Positions 30,904-43,189 of a stretch of DNA of 64,000 bases are shown piece by piece. This stretch comes from Seonamhaeicola sp. (GTDB lineage Bacteria; Bacteroidota; Bacteroidia; Flavobacteriales; Flavobacteriaceae). The stretch spans positions 62,001 to 126,000 of the forward strand of contig NZ_JANQJQ010000005.1 of NCBI RefSeq assembly GCF_028281565.1. Direction: 5' to 3'. Both the position numbers and the translations under genes were made by a program. Position 1 is the first letter of the stretch. The number at the start of each line of letters is the position of its first letter. The notes beneath the pieces are model-generated. The model did no database searches and had not been told where the DNA came from. It worked only from the letters and a program-made list of their open reading frames with translations.

Positions 30904-31030
30904 AAATTTGATTTTTATCATACAATTATAATAAGATAATTCTTATATTTAAGCTCTCTCCATTAAGAATTATACAATACCTTTTGCTGTTATAATTATG
31001 TAATAAAAAGGAAGCGATGCTGCGGAGTTA

Positions 31031-31229
31031 CTTTAAATGTTTTCACTCGGCGATTTCATTTTTATGGACTCGTTGAAACATTTAAATACATAAAAATGCC
31101 CCGTATTGTAAGACGAGGCGGCTTAAATGTTTTAGCTCGTAGTTTGATAATTTTTTATATAGAAACTCGTGAAACATTCAAGAATAAAAAAGGCGACAAG
31201 AATTAACCTGCCACCTTGAATGTTTTCAC
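31031..31229. repeat. Five copies of a ~14-bp motif in alternating orientation
   Basis: A motif close to GTGAAAACATTTAAG appears at 31031-31046 (reverse), 31072-31086 (forward), 31122-31134 (reverse), 31169-31182 (forward) and 31215-31229 (reverse). Centres are 41, 49, 47 and 47 bp apart. Neighbouring copies can pair as hairpins in two alternative registers. It lies in the 521-bp gap between the threonylcarbamoyl synthase gene and cas9, downstream of the tracrRNA. Not similar to the CRISPR repeat. Function unknown. Confidence 0.6.
31091..31119 (-). terminator. Possible minus-strand intrinsic terminator downstream of tracrRNA
   Basis: On the minus strand GCCTCGT / ACGGGGC forms a 7-bp stem (one G-T pair) with an 8-nt loop, followed by ATTTTTATG. 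It lies between copies 2 and 3 of the alternating motif and could stop read-through from the tracrRNA promoter. Confidence 0.45.
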
Positions 31230-31319
31230 AACGGAATAATCTTTCCTATAGATGAAAAATAAATTATTAACAAAATGCGGGTTTCCGTAATGTAATTTTA
31301 GATAAGAGTTAGATATTAA

Positions 31320-31397
31320 AATAAAAGAAACCACTACCGAAGCAGTGGTCTAGATTTTCTCTGTGGCTCTATGGCCTTATTGTGAATTGTCTTTCAG
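31320..31397 (-). ncRNA. tracrRNA of the type II-C CRISPR-Cas9 system
   Basis: Minus strand. Bases 31397-31380 read CTGAAAGACAATTCACAA, which pairs with the first 18 nt of the crRNA repeat with only one bulged A. A short GGC-CATAGA-GCC nexus-like stem follows, then an 8-bp hairpin ACCACTGC / GTAGTGGT closed by a UUCG loop (31349-31330) and a TTTCTTTTATTTT tail: an intrinsic terminator. A TATATTTA box at 31410-31403 resembles the Bacteroidota -7 element and would place the 5' end close to the first anti-repeat base. A longer form reaching the weaker stem near 31277-31290 is possible. The gene is divergent from cas9, 28 bp away. Confidence 0.85.
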
Positions 31398-31424
31398 GAC
31401 TGTAAATATATAAAAATAAAAATT

Positions 31425-34400
31425 ATGAAAAAACTGGGATTGGATTTAGGTAGTTCTTCCATAGGATGGTTTTTACGTGATGGTGAAGAGATTTTAAAAT
31501 TTGGAACGGTAATATTTGATTCTGGAATGGTAAAGGGTACGTCGGGGTATTCTTCACCAACCAAAGATAGACGCGAAGCTAGATTAAAAAGAAATCCTAT
31601 AAAAGCGCGCAAATACAGGAAGAAATTAATACTAAGTGTGTTGGTTGAAAAGAAAATGGTACCATTGACCAAATCAGAACTAGAAAATTGGATCAACTAC
31701 AAAAAGGGAAAACCAAAGCGATTTCCAAATAGCAAAAATTTTAGAAAATGGCTGCAGTGCGATTTTAGCTTCGATAACGGATTGTTATATAAAAATCCTT
31801 ATGAACTCAGAGTAAAAGCACTTGACCAAAAACTTAGCCCTATGGAACTTGGTCGAACCTTATACCATTTAGTCCAACGCAGAGGTTTTAAAGATATTGG
31901 CGAAACCAATAAGGAAACAAAAAAACAAATTGAACGAAGAGTAGAAAGCGGATTTCAAGAAGCGCTTCACAAACATCGTTCCATTGCAGATGCCTTACAA
32001 AATGAATATTTAGCAAAAAACTTAAGAGCAAGAGATAATTATCCCTATCGTGACGAGTATGAAGATGAACTGATAAAAATTCTAAACCACCAAGGTTATT
32101 TAATTAGTAAAAACCCTGAAAATCAATTTGTTGATAATTTTGTTCGTAGTATTCATAAGGCGATTATATGGCAACAGCCCCTCAAAACTCAAAAGGGCAA
32201 CATTGGCAAATGCACCCTTGAACCCAAGAAAAAAAGATGTGCCGTATCACATCCTCTTTATGAAATTTTTAGAGCTTGGCAATTCATCAATACCATAAAG
32301 GTGAAAAATGAATCAGATGATTATGAATTTATTTCACAAGAATACCGAAATAAGCTTTTTAAAACCGTTTTTTTAAAGAAAGACGCTAACTTTAAGTTTG
32401 AAGTTATTAGAAAGGCATTGGATAGGCTCTATCAAAAAAATAAAACTTACAATTATCCGATTAATAGTAAGACCAATACCTATGAAACTACGGTCGCTGG
32501 AATGCCATTTTGCAAAAAAATTATTACACTCTATGGAGATCAAGCCGAAGAAGATTTAAACATAGTTGAAAAATTTACCATTGGTTCAATGTCTAAGCAC
32601 TACAATGACTATTCATTGCTTGATATTTGGCATAACATAACAGAATTTGATGAAGATGCCCTTGTAAAATTTGGTAAAAATAAACTCAATCTTCGGGATA
32701 AAATAAGAAAACACAAAGGAGTAGAGAGGGCCATTTCACCTTTGGTTGAACTCAAGAATTTATTACCTAAGGGCTATGGTAACCTGAGTCAATTTGTACT
32801 TAGGAAGATAATTCCATTACTAAAGGATGGATTCTTATACAACGATGCCGTGCTTTTAGCCAATTTACCTAATGCTTTAGGCGAGAATTACAGTGAAAAA
32901 AAACAAACGGTTACTGATTTGTTAAATGAAGCTAACTCAATATACAACCACCGCAAAAAAGTTGTGCAAATTGTAAATAAACTCATAGAGGACTACAAAG
33001 GCAAAGTTGAAGCTTTCATAAATGGACATGAAGATAGTATTTTCGGATACAAAGACTTTACCTATCTTTTACAAGATTCAGACAACTATGATATAAAGAA
33101 TGCTTGTGAAAACCACTTTGGAAAATCAAGATGGAAGAATTATCAGGAAAAAGACCTACTCATAAACGAAGTTGGTAAAGAGTATCAAGAGTTCTTTTTT
33201 GATGTTAATCGTGATTATAGAAAACTTGAAACACTTCAAGTGATTTTTGAAGAATTATTGAGGCAAGAAAACATAGTTCTCAAGAAATCACTTTATCATC
33301 ACTCTAAAAGAGATAATCTTTATGGTGCCACAATAAAATATCGAAATACAGATATTGATATTCTTCCCTTGGCACAAACCAATGCTATTAAGAACCCAAT
33401 GTTTAATAAAGCCATGAGTGTATTGCGGAAGCTTATAAATACATTAATAGTAAATGGTGATGTTGATGAATACACAGAGGTTATTGTTGAGATTGCCAGA
33501 GAATTGAATGACAATAACAAACGTATTGCCATAGAGCGTTACCAAAAGCAAAGAGAAAACAAACGCAAGATGATTAGGGCTTTTCTACATGAGTACAAAG
33601 CCAACAATAAATTAACTCTTAATGTAGAAGAAAGCATACAACAGTTTGAGTTGTGGGATGAACAGATTTTAGAAGCAACCCATGATGAAAAGGGAAAAAA
33701 ACAACTAAACATTGACCGAAAAGAAATACTTAAGGAAAAAAGCGCCATAAAACGCTATGAACTTTGGATGGAACAAAAAGGGCAATGTATGTATACTGGC
33801 AAAATGATTTCCATTAGTCAACTTTTTTCATCAACTACCAATATAGAACATACCATTCCAAGAATTTTATTACCCGACAATACTTTGGCAAATCAAACCA
33901 TAGCATTTGCTGACTATAACACTAAAATTAAAAACAGAGAGCTGCCAATTAATTTACCCAATTATGAAAAAGACGTTGACGGTATTGGCACAGCTATTAA
34001 GCCCAGACTTGCTCAATGGGAAAAAGTGAGAGATGGTTTTAAGATGGCTTTTGAAACTCGCCAGAAACCTAAAGGTGTAGAAGATGAAAAAACAAAAAAC
34101 ACTAGAATACAGGAAAAGCATTTTTACAAAATGCACTATGACTATTGGAAAGATAAAATAGAACGTTTTACTGCAACAGATGTTAATGACCAGTGGGCAA
34201 GACGCCAGCTTACCGATACACAGAGCATAAGCAAATATGCTAGAGAGTTTTTAAAAACATATTTCAATAAAGTAGCGGTGCAAAAGGGTTCGGTTACTTC
34301 AGATTTTAGGAAGATGTTAGGCTTTGAAGATAAAGAGAATCCTAAGAGCCGTGCAAAACATACACATCATACTGTAGACGCAGCAGTATTAACATACATT

Positions 34401-35741
34401 CCTTCAAATGCAAGTAGAAGAGACACTTTAATTAAAAAGATGTATGACTTAAAGGACAAAATAGGGGATCAATTAGATTATAAACCTCACTCTCATTTTA
34501 ATTCTCAAAAAGTAAAAAATCAGATTGAAAATAATACATTAATATTCAATTATAAAAAGGACAACGTGGTTACGCAAACCTTTAAAAAGGTACGAAATGC
34601 TGGCAAAATTCAGTACAAAAAAGAAAGTAATGGCAATAAACTCTACAACCAGCCATTGATGCAAGCAGGTGATACCATACGCACGTCCTTATTTAAAGAT
34701 TCATTCTTGGGTAAAATAAAAAATGTAGAACGTTTTGAAGACGGTAGTCCAAAACGAAACATTGAGAATACGGATTGGGTTTACAAAACAGGCGATGATG
34801 AGTTTTCTTATGTAAAAAGAGAAGATATTTCAAAAATTTCAAGAGCAAACCTAAACGATATTGTTGATCCGCATTTGGCAGAACATATTGCAGGTCAATT
34901 AGGAAATAAACCAATATTAGATTTTCAGGGTAATCCTATACGCCATGTCAGGATTAAAAAGAAAGCGGGCAAACAAGTCAAAAAGCGTGTAGACTACCTT
35001 AGTGATAAAGACTATAAGAACTTCTTTTATGCAGAAAGTGGCTCAATTCCATATGGAATAATGCTATTTAATCCCATAAACGATGAACGTGAGTTGTTAC
35101 AGGTACACGCCTATCAAGTATCAGAAGTGTTTCGAGCTAAGCGGAGATTTGATATTGAATATTTTGTTGAACGATACTTCCCCGGGAAAACAAGGTATAA
35201 AAAGCTATTGCTTAGAATAGGACAAAAGCTTTTGGTACTAAAAGATGATTTTGATTATGAACAACGAAAAGAATCAGAATTTCAAGGAAATCGACTTTAT
35301 AAAATCATAAAAATCGATAATGGTAGTCTTTGGTTAAAATACCACTTAACGGCTACGGCAGATGATAATATTGACGCATTGGTAAAAGAAAAGAAAGATG
35401 AAATTTTATGGAACTACGAAAAGAGTTTTGGTTTACCAAAAGTTGTAGAAGATAAGAGTATCGAAGATATCAAAACTAGAAATGAAGATTTACAACGACG
35501 TAAATATAAGTTAAACAGTTGGAAAGATTATAGGATACAACGTTTGGTTGATAAGATAGGAAAAGATAAAGCCAGTGAAGTTAAAAAGGAATTAGACAAA
35601 TTTAAAAAGGTAAACTCAACCATTGAAATTGAAGGAGAAACTCCTTTACTTAAACTCAATACATCAAAAAGCTGGAATTTTCTTTATGAAGGTACGGACT
35701 TTGAATTGTCAATTTTAGGGGAATTAATTTTTAAAGAATGA
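31425..35741 (+). CDS. cas9: Type II-C Cas9 RNA-guided DNA endonuclease
   Basis: 1438 aa, the large Bacteroidota form. RuvC-I LGLDLGSSSIGW (Asp7), arginine-rich bridge helix ~47-75 (DRREARLKRNPIKARKYRKK), RuvC-II VIVEIAREL (Glu689), HNH with NIEHTIPR (His809; Glu precedes it where SpCas9 has Asp, normal in this clade) and RuvC-III HHTVDAA (His981/His982, Asp985). All catalytic residues are present, so the nuclease should be active. The C-terminal ~400 residues are the PAM-interacting region. It uses the divergent tracrRNA and the array at 37-39 kb. Its stop overlaps cas1 by 4 bp (ATGA). By eye it is distinctly more AT-rich than cas1 and cas2. Confidence 0.97.
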   Translation: MKKLGLDLGSSSIGWFLRDGEEILKFGTVIFDSGMVKGTSGYSSPTKDRREARLKRNPIKARKYRKKLILSVLVEKKMVPLTKSELENWINYKKGKPKRFPNSKNFRKWLQCDFSFDNGLLYKNPYELRVKALDQKLSPMELGRTLYHLVQRRGFKDIGETNKETKKQIERRVESGFQEALHKHRSIADALQNEYLAKNLRARDNYPYRDEYEDELIKILNHQGYLISKNPENQFVDNFVRSIHKAIIWQQPLKTQKGNIGKCTLEPKKKRCAVSHPLYEIFRAWQFINTIKVKNESDDYEFISQEYRNKLFKTVFLKKDANFKFEVIRKALDRLYQKNKTYNYPINSKTNTYETTVAGMPFCKKIITLYGDQAEEDLNIVEKFTIGSMSKHYNDYSLLDIWHNITEFDEDALVKFGKNKLNLRDKIRKHKGVERAISPLVELKNLLPKGYGNLSQFVLRKIIPLLKDGFLYNDAVLLANLPNALGENYSEKKQTVTDLLNEANSIYNHRKKVVQIVNKLIEDYKGKVEAFINGHEDSIFGYKDFTYLLQDSDNYDIKNACENHFGKSRWKNYQEKDLLINEVGKEYQEFFFDVNRDYRKLETLQVIFEELLRQENIVLKKSLYHHSKRDNLYGATIKYRNTDIDILPLAQTNAIKNPMFNKAMSVLRKLINTLIVNGDVDEYTEVIVEIARELNDNNKRIAIERYQKQRENKRKMIRAFLHEYKANNKLTLNVEESIQQFELWDEQILEATHDEKGKKQLNIDRKEILKEKSAIKRYELWMEQKGQCMYTGKMISISQLFSSTTNIEHTIPRILLPDNTLANQTIAFADYNTKIKNRELPINLPNYEKDVDGIGTAIKPRLAQWEKVRDGFKMAFETRQKPKGVEDEKTKNTRIQEKHFYKMHYDYWKDKIERFTATDVNDQWARRQLTDTQSISKYAREFLKTYFNKVAVQKGSVTSDFRKMLGFEDKENPKSRAKHTHHTVDAAVLTYIPSNASRRDTLIKKMYDLKDKIGDQLDYKPHSHFNSQKVKNQIENNTLIFNYKKDNVVTQTFKKVRNAGKIQYKKESNGNKLYNQPLMQAGDTIRTSLFKDSFLGKIKNVERFEDGSPKRNIENTDWVYKTGDDEFSYVKREDISKISRANLNDIVDPHLAEHIAGQLGNKPILDFQGNPIRHVRIKKKAGKQVKKRVDYLSDKDYKNFFYAESGSIPYGIMLFNPINDERELLQVHAYQVSEVFRAKRRFDIEYFVERYFPGKTRYKKLLLRIGQKLLVLKDDFDYEQRKESEFQGNRLYKIIKIDNGSLWLKYHLTATADDNIDALVKEKKDEILWNYEKSFGLPKVVEDKSIEDIKTRNEDLQRRKYKLNSWKDYRIQRLVDKIGKDKASEVKKELDKFKKVNSTIEIEGETPLLKLNTSKSWNFLYEGTDFELSILGELIFKE

Positions 35742-36658
35742 TAAAACGCACCCTCTTTTTCAGCAACCCAGCCTATTTAAGCACCAAAAACCAACAATTG
35801 GTGGTCAACTTTCCTGAAGAAGGTAAAGACGAAAAGACAATCCCGATTGAAGATCTGGGCTATGTGGTATTGGAAGACCCTCAGATCACTATTACTAATG
35901 GCTTGTTGATGAAATTAGTGCAAAACAAGACCGCAGTGATTACCTGTGATAAGCAGCATTTACCTTGTGCCTTATTGCAACCTTTGATAGGCCATACCGA
36001 ACAGACCGAACGGATGCGTCACCAACTAAATGCCAGTATCCCTTTAAAAAAGAACTTATGGCAACAAACCGTGACCGCAAAAATAGACAACCAGGCCAGT
36101 CATTTTCTGTCCAGGGGGAAAAATGCATTACGATTAAAACGGTATACCAAAGCGGTAAAAAGTGGCGATCTGGGTAACCAGGAGGCTTTGGCAGCAGCCT
36201 TCTATTTTCAGAATTTGTTTCATATAGACGGGTTCAGCCGGAATCAAAAGGGCATCCCTCCCAATAACCTGCTCAATTACGGTTATGCTATTTTACGTGC
36301 CGTTGCAGCCCGGGCTTTGGTAAGTAGTGGCTTGTTGCCTTCAGTGGGCATTTTCCACCATAACAAATACAATGCCTTTTGTCTGGCCGATGATGTCATG
36401 GAACCTTACCGGCCATTTGTAGACACTATGGTATATGACATTGTGGAAAGTGGCTGTAACATTGAAGAACTCAATAGAAATATCAAGGCCGACCTGTTAA
36501 TGATCCCGGCTATGGATGTTGTGATAGACGGTAAGCAAAGTCCATTGATGAATGCGATGAGCAGAACAACGGCGAGTCTTTATGAATGTTTTGAAGGCAC
36601 CCGCAGAAAGATACTCTATCCGGAATTTCGCTCATCATTACAAACATTTGTGGGTTAA
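35738..36658 (+). CDS. cas1: CRISPR integrase Cas1 (type II)
   Basis: 306 aa. MIKRTLFFSNPAYLSTKNQQ is the type II Cas1 start. The metal site is formed by Glu in QEALAAAFYFQNLF, His in GIFHHNKYNAFCLADD and the acidic residues of DDVMEPYRPFVD. With Cas2 it inserts new spacers next to the repeat. It overlaps cas9 by 4 bp and is followed by cas2 after 14 bp. Its GC content looks clearly higher than cas9 (some 60-bp stretches above 50% against about 35% in cas9), a sharp change at the overlap. Confidence 0.96.
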   Translation: MIKRTLFFSNPAYLSTKNQQLVVNFPEEGKDEKTIPIEDLGYVVLEDPQITITNGLLMKLVQNKTAVITCDKQHLPCALLQPLIGHTEQTERMRHQLNASIPLKKNLWQQTVTAKIDNQASHFLSRGKNALRLKRYTKAVKSGDLGNQEALAAAFYFQNLFHIDGFSRNQKGIPPNNLLNYGYAILRAVAARALVSSGLLPSVGIFHHNKYNAFCLADDVMEPYRPFVDTMVYDIVESGCNIEELNRNIKADLLMIPAMDVVIDGKQSPLMNAMSRTTASLYECFEGTRRKILYPEFRSSLQTFVG

Positions 36659-36663
36659 AATGA

Positions 36664-37017
<354 letters not shown>

Positions 37018-37090: not shown

Positions 37091-37129
37091 TAAAAAACAG
37101 GATACCAGCCTGTTACAGCAAGTATCCTG
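37091..37129 (-). terminator. Intrinsic terminator of the leftward CRISPR transcript
   Basis: CAGGATAC (37098-37105) and GTATCCTG (37122-37129) form a perfect 8-bp stem. On the minus strand the stem is followed at once by TTTTTT. The upstream arm uses the first four bases (CCTG) of the cas2-proximal repeat. On the plus strand there is no T-run, so the terminator serves transcription leaving the array towards cas2. Confidence 0.8.
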
Positions 37130-38993
37130 TGAATCATCCATAAAATTAAGGAACTGAAAGCAATTCACAACTGAAAAGAATTCTTCCCGTCACTTCGGCG
37201 TCCTGTGAATCATCCATAAAATTAAGGAACTGAAAGCAATTCACAACTATTACTATATACTGAAGGCACTTTTTACACCTGTGAATCATCCATAAAATTA
37301 AGGAACTGAAAGCAATTCACAACAATGGATTATTTGTTGCAAATGAACTTAATCCTGTGAATCATCCATAAAATTAAGGAACTGAAAGCAATTCACAACT
37401 ACAATAGGTTCAATATCTAATTCATACGACCTGTGAATCATCCATAAAATTAAGGAACTGAAAGCAATTCACAACAAAGGAATTTGAAAATACTTTAAAA
37501 AACACCTGTGAATCATCCATAAAATTAAGGAACTGAAAGCAATTCACAACAGAAGCGGTGTTTAAACGCGTGGGAAAGTTCCTGTGAATCATCCATAAAA
37601 TTAAGGAACTGAAAGCAATTCACAACCAATCTACTTTTTAAGTGCCGATGGTGGCGCCTGTGAATCATCCATAAAATTAAGGAACTGAAAGCAATTCACA
37701 ACTATGACAGGGCGTACAACGAGGTTCAAAATCCTGTGAATCATCCATAAAATTAAGGAACTGAAAGCAATTCACAACTGAAATTTGTTTCTTGAACTAT
37801 CCCGAACCCCTGTGAATCATCCATAAAATTAAGGAACTGAAAGCAATTCACAACCTTATCGTATTAGGAATAACCTTCATTTATCCTGTGAATCATCCAT
37901 AAAATTAAGGAACTGAAAGCAATTCACAACCCCACTGTCCTTTTTTCACTTTTGCCATTTCCTGTGAATCATCCATAAAATTAAGGAACTGAAAGCAATT
38001 CACAACGAAATTAGAAGAACAGGCTTTTGGAGAAACCCTGTGAATCATCCATAAAATTAAGGAACTGAAAGCAATTCACAACGATGTTCTGATACACCTT
38101 TAAAAAACTTGTCCTGTGAATCATCCATAAAATTAAGGAACTGAAAGCAATTCACAACATAGGTCTGTGAACTGTGTACCTGCATACTCCTGTGAATCAT
38201 CCATAAAATTAAGGAACTGAAAGCAATTCACAACTGGTTTGTCAAAATATAATTTATCATCAGCCCTGTGAATCATCCATAAAATTAAGGAACTGAAAGC
38301 AATTCACAACAATGTCTTGTTGGGTCATGATGTTTAATTCCTGTGAATCATCCATAAAATTAAGGAACTGAAAGCAATTCACAACGATATGTGTATTTCT
38401 CCGTTAACTTTGTATCCTGTGAATCATCCATAAAATTAAGGAACTGAAAGCAATTCACAACCCACTCTCAAGAAGGACGATTATCAATTGTCCTGTGAAT
38501 CATCCATAAAATTAAGGAACTGAAAGCAATTCACAACTAAAAACCTTATTTCACGTTGAGTGTTTCTCCTGTGAATCATCCATAAAATTAAGGAACTGAA
38601 AGCAATTCACAACTATGTTTCATAAACTTTTAATACACCGCAACCTGTGAATCATCCATAAAATTAAGGAACTGAAAGCAATTCACAACGCGGAGGGGTT
38701 CTTCTTAAATGGAACCGTCCCTGTGAATCATCCATAAAATTAAGGAACTGAAAGCAATTCACAACCAAGGTAATCAAGCCCTCTTAAAGTAGATTCCTGT
38801 GAATCATCCATAAAATTAAGGAACTGAAAGCAATTCACAACGGGTTCTTGTGCATAATCACCGCTAATGGCCTGTGAATTATCCATAAAATTAAGGAACT
38901 GAAAGCAATTCACAACTATTGCTTTGCAACACTAACAACAAATCTTCCTGTGAATCATCACTAAAATTAGTAAACTGAAATTTAAGTCACAAG
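37126..38993 (-). CRISPR. CRISPR array, 25 repeats of 46 bp, 24 spacers
   Basis: The plus-strand repeat starts CCTGTGAATCATCC and ends GCAATTCACAAC (46 bp). The first 23 copies (37126 to 38841) are identical; copy 24 (38871) has one C-to-T change; copy 25 (38947) is degenerate. Spacers are 30 bp, four of them 29 bp. The ends TGTGAAT and ATTCACA are inverted. The crRNA sense is minus: the anti-repeat of the tracrRNA pairs with GTTGTGAATTGCTTTCAG, and a terminator lies at the cas2 side. In that sense each repeat has TTG at position 2 and TAATTTTA at 25, a TTG-N20-TAnnTTTG-like promoter. No spacer matched another part of the window by eye. Confidence 0.97.
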
Positions 38994-39360
38994 CCATTAT
39001 GTTTAGGCATTAGTAAGCTCGTTGCAAAGACCTGTGCCTGGGTAAAGAACAACCTCCGAAATTCAGTGTAGTTAAAGCAATTCATGATAAGAGGTATACA
39101 AAAAAGTGTACAAAATATCTTGTGATCATCCATAACCCTTCGAGTGCCTCAGAGCGAGTATTAAGGAGCTGAAATTTAAGTCACAAGTCATTAGTGTACA
39201 GACATTATTAAGCGCGTTGCAAGAATCTGAGCACACGTAAAGAGCAATCTCCGAAATTCAGCAAAACTAAAGCAATTCACAACATTGTTAACAAGTCTGT
39301 TGAAAACTTATTTCTCATGAATTATTCATAAAATAAAGGAACTGAAACCCGAAACAAAAC
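38994..39360. repeat. Fossil end of the CRISPR array with a duplicated ~172-bp block
   Basis: Two related blocks follow: 38947-39118 (172 bp, its first part being repeat 25) and 39119-39313 (195 bp, longer because of a 23-bp insertion at 39136-39158 inside the repeat). Each has a degenerate repeat ending CTGAAATTTAAGTCACAAG, then ~95 bp ending ...AAAGCAATTCA, then exactly 30 bp of spacer-like DNA (39089-39118; 39284-39313). A last degenerate repeat (CATGAATTATTCATAAAAT..., 39314-39360) follows. The ~75-bp inner segments are roughly 75-80% identical. This is a decayed, locally duplicated array end. Confidence 0.8.
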
Positions 39361-39745
39361 AACTTAAATAAGGACTATAATATTAAAATATTGAATGTAT
39401 TTTACTTAAAATCAAGTACTTATATTTATTGTTTATTGAGATATACAATGCCTAATTTTAAGGATAGCAAAAAATGAAATCAAAAAAGCGGCAGTTATAA
39501 AAAAAATATTATTTTAGCCACAGAGAATTCTCTCTCATTCTCTACACTCTGAAAGTTTTTTTAGAGTGTTCTCAGCCAAATATTTAATTTATTAAAACAA
39601 ACCCCAACCTTTGTTTTAATTAAAAAAACAACAAGCATGTAACTGATGTGTACATGTATTGCTTGGCGTTTTTTTAAAAATTTCCAACACGTTTATATCC
39701 GCAGGGATACTATGGTGTGTTGAACTAAGACGAATTAACCAAAAA
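39361..39745 (+). other. Non-coding gap before the surface operon, with two hairpins
   Basis: 385 bp of AT-rich DNA without a credible gene. An inverted repeat ACACTCT / AGAGTGT lies at 39544-39569. A larger interrupted hairpin, CAAGCATGTA (39632-39641) with TACAT..GCTTG (39651-39665), is followed by a T7 run at 39669-39675 on the plus strand. That has the shape of an intrinsic terminator or a leader attenuator 70 bp before the start of the tandem-repeat protein gene. What transcript it would end is not visible. Confidence 0.4.
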
Positions 39746-42700
39746 ATGAATATTAACTTTAAATCTATCAATGTGAAAAAACTACTTGTTATTTCAGCGT
39801 TCCTGACTTTGGGAACAGTTTATGCTCAGGTTGGGGTTGGAACACCACTTCCTGATGAATCCGCTCAACTCGATGTGGTTGCAACCGATAAAGGGGTGTT
39901 AATCCCCAGGCTTGCATTAACCGGGTCTACAGACGCCTCTACCATAGCAAATGGTAACGTTACAAGCCTTTTAGTATTTAATACGGCCAGTAACGGTGAC
40001 CTAACACCCGGGTATCATTATTGGGATGGTACCAAATGGCAGCGATTAACGAATATTGATGATGTTCTTAATCTGGAAGTCCTGACCACACTTGTTAATA
40101 ATAATGACGGTACCTTTACCTATACCGACGAGGATGGTGTGGAATTTATTTTTGATGCCAATACCACCACTGTAACAAATGTCATAGCCGGTAACAGAAT
40201 AGCCACGTTAACCGAAGCCAATGGAACAGCCACCGATATTAATGAAACCGTAACTACCTTTGTTGACAATGCGAACGGTACTATTACCTATACAGATGAA
40301 GCAGGTGTGGCTAACACTGTAAACAAATCCGATATCACAGATAACGGCGATGGTACTTACACCTTTACCAATAACGATGGCTCCGATGTAACTATCGATA
40401 CGAACGGGATCGCTATTTCCAATGTGATCGCTGGGAACCTAATCGCTACAGTGACCGAAGCTGATGGTACTACGGTAGATATTGACGAGACTATTACCAC
40501 TGTAACAGGAACAGTCAGCGGACACCTGATTGCTACCTACACTGCTGAGGGAGGAGCAACTACCGATATCAATGAGACTATAACCACCTTTGTGGACAAT
40601 GCAGACGGTACTATTACCTTCACTGATGAATCAGGTACGGCCAACACTGTAAATAAGTCTGATATCACAGATAACGGCGATGGTACTTACACCTTTACCA
40701 ATAATGATGGTTCCGATGTAACAATCGATACCAACGGGATCGCTATTTCCAATGTGATTAACGGGAACCTGATCGCTACAGTGACTGAGGCCGACGGTAC
40801 TACAGTAGATATTGATGAAACCATTGCTACCTTTGTAGACAATGCAGACGGTACTATTACCTATACTGATGAAGGAGGTACAGCCAGAACAGTGAACAAG
40901 TCTGATATCACAGATAACGGTGACGGTACTTATACCTTTACCAATAACGATGGTTCCGATGTAACCATCGATACCAACGGGGTCGCTATTTCCAATGTGA
41001 TCGCCGGTAACAGAATAGCTACCGTTACAGAGGCTGATGGTACTACGGTAGATATTGACGAGACCATTACTACCATAACGGGAACAGTTAGCGGAAACCT
41101 GATCGGTACCTATACTGCAGAGGGAGGCGCAACTACCAATATTAATGAAACCGTAGCTACCTTTGTAGACAATTCAGACGGTACTATTACCTATACCGAT
41201 GAAGGAGGTACAGCCAGAACAGTGAACAAGTCTGATATCACAGATAACAGTGACGGTACTTATACCTTTACCAATAACGATGGTTCCGATGTAACGATCA
41301 ACACCAACGGGATTGCCATTACCGATGTAATAGCCGGAAACCTGATTGCAACAATAACCGAAGCCGATGGAACCGTTACCGAAATTGATGAGACCATAGC
41401 CACATTTGTAGATAATGCGGATGGTACCATTACGTATACCGATGAGGGCGGGACAGCCAGAACGGTAAATAAATCAGACGTCACAGATAATGCAGACGGC
41501 ACCTATACCTTTACCAATAACGATGGGACTGACGTAACGATCAACACCAACGGGATTGCCATTACCGATGTAATAGCCGGAAACCTCATTGCAACAATAA
41601 CCGAAGCCGATGGAACCGTTACCGAAATTGACGAGACTATAACAAGCTTGGGTCAGAACAATGCCACCGGAGATATTACCTATACTGATGAAGATGGTGG
41701 TACTACCACCGTTGACGTCATCAGTACAAATGCGGGCAACCTGATCTCAGCAGGTACCGATGGCGGAGCCTTTGTGGATGCCGCCGGGTTAACAGGAGAC
41801 GGCTCCATTACCTCAAATGATCTGACAGTAACCGGAGGCACCAATGCCACTTTAAACGACGTTACTCTGGACATTGCCGCCGGGGCCGTCGGAACCACCG
41901 AATTAGCAAATACTGCCGTAACCACAGCTAAAATTGCAGATTCGCAGGTGAACAGCGCCAAAATAGTCGATGGAACGATCACTAACAGTGATATTGCCAG
42001 TAATACAATTGAAGGTAGCAGGATATTGAACGCAACCATTGAGGCAGTAGACCTTGCCAATGATGCGGTTAGCCTGGCCAAATTGGCGAACGGTACCCTT
42101 GCTGGACAACTCATGAGATGGAATGGTACGGATTGGTTACTGGTTGCCGATACTTCGGTAGGTACAGATGACCAGACAGCCACCGAGGTAACGTATGACA
42201 ACACTACTTCAGGGTTGACAGCCACTACCGTTCAGGCAGCAATAGATGAACTCAATACAAACAGTACCGACGATCAGAATATCGAGAACCTTGCTGTAAA
42301 CAATCTAACAAATGTTCTTACTGTAGGGATAGAGGATGGAACTTCTCAAACAGTGGACCTTTCCCATTTGGATGATGCCGGAACCGATGATCAGAATATC
42401 GAGAGTCTTGCAGTAAACAATATTACAAATGTTCTTACTGTAGGTATAGAAGATGGAACTTCTCAAACAGTAGACCTTTCTCACCTTGATGATCCCGGTA
42501 CGGACGACCAGAATATTAGTGGTTCCGGGCTTTCCGGTACTACCCTTACCATAGGTATCGAAGGTGGTACAAATGAGACTGTAGACCTTTCCAGCCTTGT
42601 AGGGACCGATGATCAGAATATCGCGAGCCTTGCGGTAAACAATCTAACGAATGTTCTTACTGTTGGAATAGAGAATGGTACTTCTCAGAGCGTTGACCTT

Positions 42701-43189
42701 TCTCACTTGGATGATGCAGGAACGGATGACCAGAATATCAGTGGTTCCGGACTTTCCGGTACTACCCTTACCATAGGTATTGAAGGCGGTACTTCCGAAA
42801 CGGTAGACCTTTCCAGCTTACAGGATGGAACAGGAACAGATGATCAGACAGCAGCAGAGGTAAGTTATGATAATACTACTTCAGGTTTAAGTGCAGCAAA
42901 TGTAAAGGCAGCAATAGACGAGTTGGTAAGTGAAGCAAATACAAAGCCTATTACATCTACTAATAGTAATATTACCCTGGATGCTTCTAATTATACGGTT
43001 GTAATTAATTCAGGAGCCACTACAGTAACATTACCAGTTGCCGCTGTTGCAAATCAAGGTAGAATTTATATTTTAATTAATAGTAGTGGGGGTGCTGTAA
43101 CTGTAACAAATGGACCGAATGCTTCAATTGCAAATGGCGTGAGAGAATGGGTACAAAGTACTGGAACTGCTTGGATTAAAATAAACTAG
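39746..43189 (+). CDS. Secreted tandem-repeat surface protein
   Basis: 1147 aa from the ATG at 39746, which places a signal peptide (MNINFKSINVKKLLVISAFL...YAQ) first; an upstream frame start at 39659 would bury it. A head resembling the VGTPLPDESAQLDV domains of flavobacterial surface proteins is followed by about five copies of a ~80-residue unit (TFVDNADGTITYTDEGGTA, VNKSDITDNGDGTYTFTNND, AISNVIAGNLIATVTEADGT). Next come tail-fibre-like LTTAKIADSQVNSAKI repeats, then five DDQNI..LAVNNLTNVLTVGIEDGT units. No T9SS sorting domain is visible; the C-terminus ends WVQSTGTAWIKIN. First gene of an operon with the CHU_C, PorP and PorE-like genes. Confidence 0.85.
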   Translation: MNINFKSINVKKLLVISAFLTLGTVYAQVGVGTPLPDESAQLDVVATDKGVLIPRLALTGSTDASTIANGNVTSLLVFNTASNGDLTPGYHYWDGTKWQRLTNIDDVLNLEVLTTLVNNNDGTFTYTDEDGVEFIFDANTTTVTNVIAGNRIATLTEANGTATDINETVTTFVDNANGTITYTDEAGVANTVNKSDITDNGDGTYTFTNNDGSDVTIDTNGIAISNVIAGNLIATVTEADGTTVDIDETITTVTGTVSGHLIATYTAEGGATTDINETITTFVDNADGTITFTDESGTANTVNKSDITDNGDGTYTFTNNDGSDVTIDTNGIAISNVINGNLIATVTEADGTTVDIDETIATFVDNADGTITYTDEGGTARTVNKSDITDNGDGTYTFTNNDGSDVTIDTNGVAISNVIAGNRIATVTEADGTTVDIDETITTITGTVSGNLIGTYTAEGGATTNINETVATFVDNSDGTITYTDEGGTARTVNKSDITDNSDGTYTFTNNDGSDVTINTNGIAITDVIAGNLIATITEADGTVTEIDETIATFVDNADGTITYTDEGGTARTVNKSDVTDNADGTYTFTNNDGTDVTINTNGIAITDVIAGNLIATITEADGTVTEIDETITSLGQNNATGDITYTDEDGGTTTVDVISTNAGNLISAGTDGGAFVDAAGLTGDGSITSNDLTVTGGTNATLNDVTLDIAAGAVGTTELANTAVTTAKIADSQVNSAKIVDGTITNSDIASNTIEGSRILNATIEAVDLANDAVSLAKLANGTLAGQLMRWNGTDWLLVADTSVGTDDQTATEVTYDNTTSGLTATTVQAAIDELNTNSTDDQNIENLAVNNLTNVLTVGIEDGTSQTVDLSHLDDAGTDDQNIESLAVNNITNVLTVGIEDGTSQTVDLSHLDDPGTDDQNISGSGLSGTTLTIGIEGGTNETVDLSSLVGTDDQNIASLAVNNLTNVLTVGIENGTSQSVDLSHLDDAGTDDQNISGSGLSGTTLTIGIEGGTSETVDLSSLQDGTGTDDQTAAEVSYDNTTSGLSAANVKAAIDELVSEANTKPITSTNSNITLDASNYTVVINSGATTVTLPVAAVANQGRIYILINSSGGAVTVTNGPNASIANGVREWVQSTGTAWIKIN
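40230..41650 (+). repeat. In-frame tandem DNA repeats of two alternating lengths
   Basis: Five copies of a unit beginning with the codons for TFVDNxDGTIT start near 40258, 40588, 40830, 41160 and 41400, spaced about 330, 242, 330 and 240 bp. The long form carries an extra ~87 bp encoding TVSGxLIxTYTAEGGATT. Neighbouring copies are nearly identical in DNA, so slippage or recombination could change copy number. Confidence 0.8.

Follow-up and report, generated by a model that had tools for sequence, protein, structure and literature searches.

Small hairpin-ended elements that probably inserted recurrently at one site of type II CRISPR repeats in Flavobacteriaceae

What are the two odd blocks that end the CRISPR array of a Seonamhaeicola species? 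They lie in a 64,000-nt stretch of contig NZ_JANQJQ010000005.1, referred to here as the window; the genome is labelled G000 among the Flavobacteriaceae genomes compared, in which G labels denote genomes and L followed by digits denotes fetched loci. The plus strand carries cas9 (31425-35741; 1438 aa; NCBIfam TIGR01865, E 1.8e-101; Pfam HNH_4 and RuvC_III), cas1 (35738-36658; NCBIfam TIGR03639, type II Cas1, E 1e-89) and cas2 (36673-37017; NCBIfam TIGR01573, E 2.7e-21). The interval from cas9 to the array contains no further plus-strand ORF of at least 80 aa, i.e. no fourth adaptation gene. The array itself has 24 normal repeats of 46 nt on the minus strand (37126-38916), separated by spacers of about 30 nt; 23 repeats are exact and the one at 38871 has one mismatch. 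A candidate tracrRNA adjoins cas9 (31327-31405, minus strand), with an anti-repeat from about 31380 and a terminator-like hairpin at 31327-31350, and its predicted duplex with the normal minus-strand repeat has an energy of -23.3 kcal/mol. A leader-like hairpin (GGATACC...GTATCC, 37100-37127) touches the first repeat on the cas2 side, and similar sequence lies at the cas2-side array end in G356, G250, G123 and G182. This order of cas9, cas1, cas2, array and tracr-like RNA, as read from the DNA, indicates a type II CRISPR-Cas locus with a layout that we take to be II-C. Because the minus-strand repeat pairs with the anti-repeat and the leader-like hairpin is on the cas2 side, we regard the opposite end (38947-39360) as the array's oldest portion and as lying upstream in the crRNA sense, in agreement with the first-pass annotation, which had placed it 5' of the array.

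The two blocks described by that annotation are real. They span 38947-39118 (172 bp) and 39119-39313 (195 bp) and are identical at 131 of 161 ungapped positions of a global alignment, which scores 67 (300 letter shuffles of block 2: mean 8.3, largest 22.4). They share an inner segment of 85 bp at 76% identity without gaps, their spacers are exactly 30 bp long (39089-39118 and 39284-39313), and a fossil repeat of normal length follows block 2 (39314-39359, minus strand), matching at 31 of 46 positions. Two proposed dimensions needed correction: the length difference is indeed a net 23 bp, but it is composed of a 24-bp insert plus one-base differences instead of a single 23-bp insertion, and the segment put at about 92 bp is present but measures 96/97 bp against the normal repeat. 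Each block is one 46-bp type II repeat interrupted by this insert between CTGAA and AGCAATTCA. Block 1 consists of the first 33 bases of a degenerate repeat, in plus-strand order and ending in CTGAA (38947-38979), the 96-bp insert (38980-39075) and the last 13 bases of the repeat in the mutated form AGCAATTCATGAT (39076-39088). In block 2 the repeat, likewise on the minus strand, is split twice: a first part ending in CCATAA (39119-39135), a 24-bp insert of the form CCCTTCG..CTCAG-like (39136-39159), a middle part ending in CTGAA (39160-39173), the 97-bp insert (39174-39270) and the last 13 bases, intact as AGCAATTCACAAC (39271-39283). The insertion site of the long segment follows TGAA, 13-15 bases short of the end of the repeat that gives rise to the crRNA tag. 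Its exact point is ambiguous by AA or AAA because the two insert ends share these bases; with the shared AA, block 2 retains an intact 15-nt crRNA-side tag. The predicted pairing with the tracr anti-repeat is -21.4 kcal/mol for block 2, -13.6 for block 1 and -12.4 for the fossil repeat.

The spacer position of block 1 matches the flank of a repeat remnant in G333 at 23 of 24 bases, and 20 of its bases have two near-copies, with one and two mismatches, on contig C26 of its own genome; rather than a captured spacer, it may be a short repeat element. A 115-nt block 2 query found two places in its own genome, both of them these blocks, and no match in six other genomes of the genus. The region 38940-39370 had no match in phage or plasmid collections, and a class-wide search for TAAAGCAATTCACAAC returned only its own genome (1 of 355, the genomes not being sorted by possession of this repeat).

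Repeats expanded at the same place occur elsewhere in the family. A hand count, not a random sample, gave 35 copies in 14 Flavobacteriaceae genomes of 13 genera: six in G027; four each in G356, G134 and G047; three each in G182 and G262; two each in G000, G001 and G123; and one each in G128, G179, G250, G333 and G150. Both repeat halves are recognisable in 23 of the 35 (all copies of G000, G027, G356, G134, G047, G128 and G179, and one of G001). The 3' repeat half is truncated or absent in G182, G333, G262, G150 and the second G001 copy; in G123 it is the left side that is rearranged; and G250 has the element in inverted orientation, with ends that differ slightly. Eight of these genomes (G000, G001, G027, G047, G123, G128, G179, G356) were among the 13 of 397 matched by a pattern, the 3' half-repeat not preceded by G, each of which was then read individually. 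The other five matches had different explanations: G307 and G007 are apparently coding, G119 is a one-base change, G293 is a site beside tracr-like sequence and G317 is a short odd case. The expanded repeats of G134, G182, G333, G262, G150 and G250 were found later, the repeat pattern of G134 being read by hand and the inserts of G262 and G150 recognised by eye. When the 397 genomes were searched with Cas9, ten had a match at E<=1e-60, their number including the window's own genome. Among the arrays reached in this way, six of eight carry an insert (G000, G027, G179, G250, G262, G150; not G246 and G260), a count restricted to arrays that have this repeat family and whose old end is visible; it omits G323, whose contig showed no array, and G324, whose repeat is different. 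The related-locus search with Cas9 gave one distant locus, at 34% identity. Among the titles and abstract openings of the literature matches listed, no report of inserts inside CRISPR repeats was found.

These genomes bear directly on how the blocks arose. The first-pass annotation had supposed the entry into a repeat of a segment with the borders CTGAAATTT/AAATTCAG, and this is supported: other genera have the same place in the repeat filled, and in the normal repeats of those arrays the site is empty. Its companion proposal, simple duplication of the segment together with the repeat, is less well supported. Tandem blocks in G262 and G182 agree with it, but block copying alone is not sufficient in G027, G356 and G047 because expanded repeats alternate with normal ones and have mostly different spacers. 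In G027, for example, six repeats with a 57-bp insert at the same point are interspersed with normal repeats, and their spacers differ but for one that is repeated. For the window's two blocks, block duplication and separate insertion are both possible.

The inserts can be sorted into type S (about 50-57 nt), type L (about 92-97 nt), to which those of the window belong, and a minor type X. The S inserts of G027, G356, G123, G134, G182 and G250 (reversed) are mutually homologous. Type L comprises the inserts of the window, G333, G047 and G128, with those of G262 and G150 assigned by their ends; its length is near constant, and its interiors are 67-73% identical between the window and G333 and 24-45% identical in other pairs of genera. 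Type X is common to G179 and G001. The ends of the elements are shared: the left end is the target's own TGAA, the right end is RTTCA followed by TAAA, and the right part pairs back onto the left. Double inserts, in which a short CCCTTCG-type element occupies a first point of the repeat, are found at the same place in four genera, represented by window block 2, G179, G182 and G333. The 24-bp insert of block 2 resembles an CCCTTCGACTGCGCTCAGGG-type interspersed repeat that has 16 matches with at most four substitutions in 802,069 bases of fetched loci; a string search for the core of this insert had no match in the window, presumably because the window copy is too diverged. At locus L114 of G182, the interval from cas2 to the active array contains three tandem units, each of leader-like sequence and a double-insert repeat, an arrangement reminiscent of a restarted array.

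The inverted ends noticed in the window segment are confirmed by a helix that covaries across the L inserts. This helix, located at the insertion point and common to S and L, is the only consistent structure. In S, 99.3% of cells are paired and 41 cells are changed on both sides, and the best slid control reaches 48.6%; the alignment was fitted to the model, and the helix had first come to light in a separate, independent alignment of 12 copies by MAFFT. In L, 97.2% of cells are paired, eight are changed on both sides and the best slid control reaches 54.2%, with two of the five covariation measures not above shuffles (61/500 for pairs changed on both sides and 495/500 for pair types). The helix includes the repeat's own CTGAA, and part of the left arm in S and L is the target itself. 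Terminal inverted repeats, as in MITEs, are present in S and L in the form of this covarying end pairing. TTCAG is found in 15 of 18 parsed array copies of S (G027, G356, G123, G182), in 14 of which it is complementary to the preceding CTGAA, and in 6 of 9 aligned L copies; among the 96 other S copies a single one has it, a copy located within a tracr-like anti-repeat. Among dispersed S copies, the base before TGAA does not covary with the base after TTCA (43/90 against 40.4 expected, p 0.29; 96 dispersed rows collapsed to 90 distinct, and 5 of 119 matches unparsed and dropped).

Type S is dispersed through genomes. A first model, R1, gave 13 strong matches, every one of them in an array; its weaker matches elsewhere are probably in part due to chance. 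A wider model, R3, was built with the convincing weak matches, leaving out four (L053, L057, L058, L063) that were seemingly coding sequence. At E<=0.001 per genome, R3 has matches in 142 of 397 genomes and at most 12 in any one, with E-values that are rough and counts that include array copies. In total, 119 S matches from 92 searched loci were aligned. At 86 S loci outside six known arrays, neither a repeat-end motif nor a thrice-repeated 18-mer lies near the match (L104 excepted, owing to masked bases). S lay outside ORFs of at least 100 aa in 21 of 21 loci looked at; it adjoins varied genes, and some copies form close inverted pairs. One copy splits the second tracr-like anti-repeat upstream of cas9 in G027. 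The L model, R2, had seven strong matches in 14 chosen genomes and, at E<=1e-4, eight matches in 4 of 378 genomes, all of these in repeats or their remnants; three matches outside arrays (E 0.08-0.09) were taken as noise. The absence of L outside repeats is weak evidence because R2 did not list the inserts of G262 and G150 genome-wide; among the fetched loci it gave a weak match to the former and none to the latter. The first-pass annotation had named many unrelated genomic copies, as of a generic MITE, as a finding against its own reading. A related short type does lie at many other genomic places, so that a generic repeat element is involved, but none of the matches there were of the long type seen in the window.

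Inverted S elements flank an AbiC-like and GmrSD-like gene pair in G179 (L078:3216-7317) and a NACHT-domain gene in G119 (L080:1488-4725). The idea that S flanks defence genes in general was dropped, as the ORFs beside 21 other S loci were miscellaneous by eye.

On the basis of these observations, we consider it probable that the odd blocks result from recurrent insertion of small REP/MITE-like hairpin-ended elements at a fixed point of the repeat. Each block would consist of a type II repeat and one such element of the long type, and the elements would form a loose group with common ends. S would be an interspersed repeat of REP/MITE-like character in Flavobacteriaceae, with CRISPR repeats among the sites it has entered, presumably through a transposition-like process acting in trans, and L may, by analogy, move as S does. 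Block 2 would contain, in addition, a second short recurrent repeat element, which occupies another fixed point of that repeat. Copies might last at the oldest end because the crRNA tag is left intact and the leader-proximal repeat, used for spacer capture, is undisturbed. One feature sits uneasily with such insertion: a near-constant L length with a drifting interior is not required of a plain mobile family. In addition, no transposase is linked to S or L insertion. Y1_Tnp, the sole transposase family searched, has no match in 8 of 20 S- or L-bearing genomes, and no S match was found within about 1.5 kb on either side of 30 of the 43 Y1_Tnp matches (85,549 bases). No target duplication is seen beyond the ambiguous AA(A), which may be chance.

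Known elements provide partial parallels. REPs and MITEs are interspersed repeats of bacteria. S is likewise short, dispersed and outside ORFs; its helix covaries, and some copies are arranged in close inverted pairs. It differs in its low number of matches per genome, in having no demonstrated RAYT link and in also occupying a fixed place inside CRISPR repeats; the arrangement of REPs flanking a Y1/RAYT gene was not seen at the 30 Y1_Tnp loci. L differs in being found only inside CRISPR repeats or their remnants. Elements of the IS200/IS605 type are associated with palindromes. S and L resemble them in inserting after a short target with no clear duplication and in the pairing of target bases with a stretch inside the element. 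S departs from them, however, in lacking a Y1 transposase nearby at those 30 loci and in the outer base that does not covary in dispersed copies.

The position of the inserts is where insertion has to be weighed against a function. Expanded repeats lie at the old end of the arrays, as found by rank tests in G027 (6/38, P 1.5e-5), G356 (4/20, P 0.0025), G134 (4/25, P 1.3e-4) and the window (2/26, P 0.003, or 0.011 with the normal-length terminal fossil as the 27th repeat); the repeats within each array are not independent of one another. Age by itself would give this pattern, and so would selection against enlargement of the leader-proximal repeat; in a type II-A system, according to the excerpted text of PMC6895254, integration is set by a ruler inside the repeat. 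It is also conceivable, if doubtful, that the expanded repeat at the upstream end of II-C arrays has been domesticated, disarming the extra (oldest) repeat or otherwise regulating the array, for example through an insert that folds a repeat half away from tracrRNA or RNase III. There is room for such a role because no enzyme was found, L is seen only in repeats, and L stays constant in length while its interior drifts. The old-end position, the inserts in six of eight arrays reached through Cas9, the use of the repeat's own CTGAA in the helix and the weak tracrRNA pairing of block 1 and the fossil repeat (-13.6 and -12.4 against -23.3 kcal/mol) would all suit it. The problem of the extra II-C repeat is, moreover, already published: the excerpted text of PMC12080349 describes repeat mutations, an upstream terminator and an upstream hairpin as strategies. 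The window is similar in that the oldest repeats are altered at the same array end, but none of the three strategies in that excerpt involves an insert within the repeat.

Several observations count against a domesticated part. Arrays hold several copies, some followed by normal repeats, S occurs away from arrays at the 86 loci checked, and the relatives G260 and G246 have no inserts. In the window, block 2 has an intact tag and still pairs with the tracrRNA, and the terminal repeat is itself unexpanded. Insert type does not follow Cas1: on a tree of 15 Cas1 rows, the labels L, S, X and none require eight changes where the minimum is three, and 171 of 200 shuffles are as low, though this tree is soft because 6 of its 12 inner branches are open. 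This scatter fits repeated insertion or exchange better than one inherited part. A combined reading is similarly tentative: a hairpin-element lineage would have specialised on CRISPR repeats, as the TTCAG bias and the detection of L only in repeats suggest, and the old expanded repeat would mute the extra II-C crRNA.

Explanations without a mobile element fare worse. It is very unlikely that accidents of Cas1-Cas2 or recombination inside the repeat produced the inserts locally; an array does acquire DNA itself, and the tandem blocks of G262 and G182 could be read in this way, but related insert sequence occupies the same repeat place in different genera and S has copies away from arrays. Plain decay, in which old repeat-spacer units diverged and were copied as a block, is just as improbable. 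The terminal repeat at 39314 has decayed, and old II-C repeats mutate most in the account excerpted from PMC12080349; the interior, however, is matched by homologous sequence (67-73%) at this position of the repeat in G333, and the L inserts of G047, G128, G262 and G150 have the same ends. The first-pass annotation had named homologous segments in other loci as what would separate its reading from simple decay; such segments were found in other CRISPR loci, and simple decay is therefore rejected. Its suggestion of a leader, a scaRNA-like RNA or a natural guide RNA, prompted by the location 5' of the array in the crRNA sense, is unsupported and very unlikely: the leader-like hairpin is at the opposite, cas2 side, no tracr-like tail is visible by eye in either block, Rfam has no match in the window, and the folding of the two window inserts, on plus and minus strand alike, does not surpass that of shuffles (z 0.18 to 1.35). 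More broadly, 19 of 20 fold z-scores for ten inserts on both strands lie between -1.86 and +1.66, the exception being -2.56 (G356, plus strand), and Rfam at gathering scores found only two tRNAs in 20 loci.

The inserts have consequences for how arrays are understood. CRISPR repeats are expected to be fixed in length, and recurrent inserts at one place can leave the crRNA tag intact. The inserts show either a small element using CRISPR repeats as a safe harbour or arrays gaining expanded repeats as a regulatory part; the occurrence of similar insertions in arrays of other members of the family suggests that a small genomic parasite, perhaps a tamed one, lives inside an immune system. Array-finding programs that assume a fixed repeat length may cut such arrays short.

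Two further features of the locus deserve record. At 31000-31240 (minus strand), upstream of the cas9-proximal tracrRNA, there is a second tracr-like stretch (GGATTATTCCGTTGTGAAAACATT..) that contains hairpins and also occurs upstream of cas9 in L016 and L045; its anti-repeat is not seen in the window, is split by the S element in G027 and is kept in G293. Beside the array, at 39659-43189, is a large repetitive open frame with 300-bp internal repeats that are 72-74% identical.
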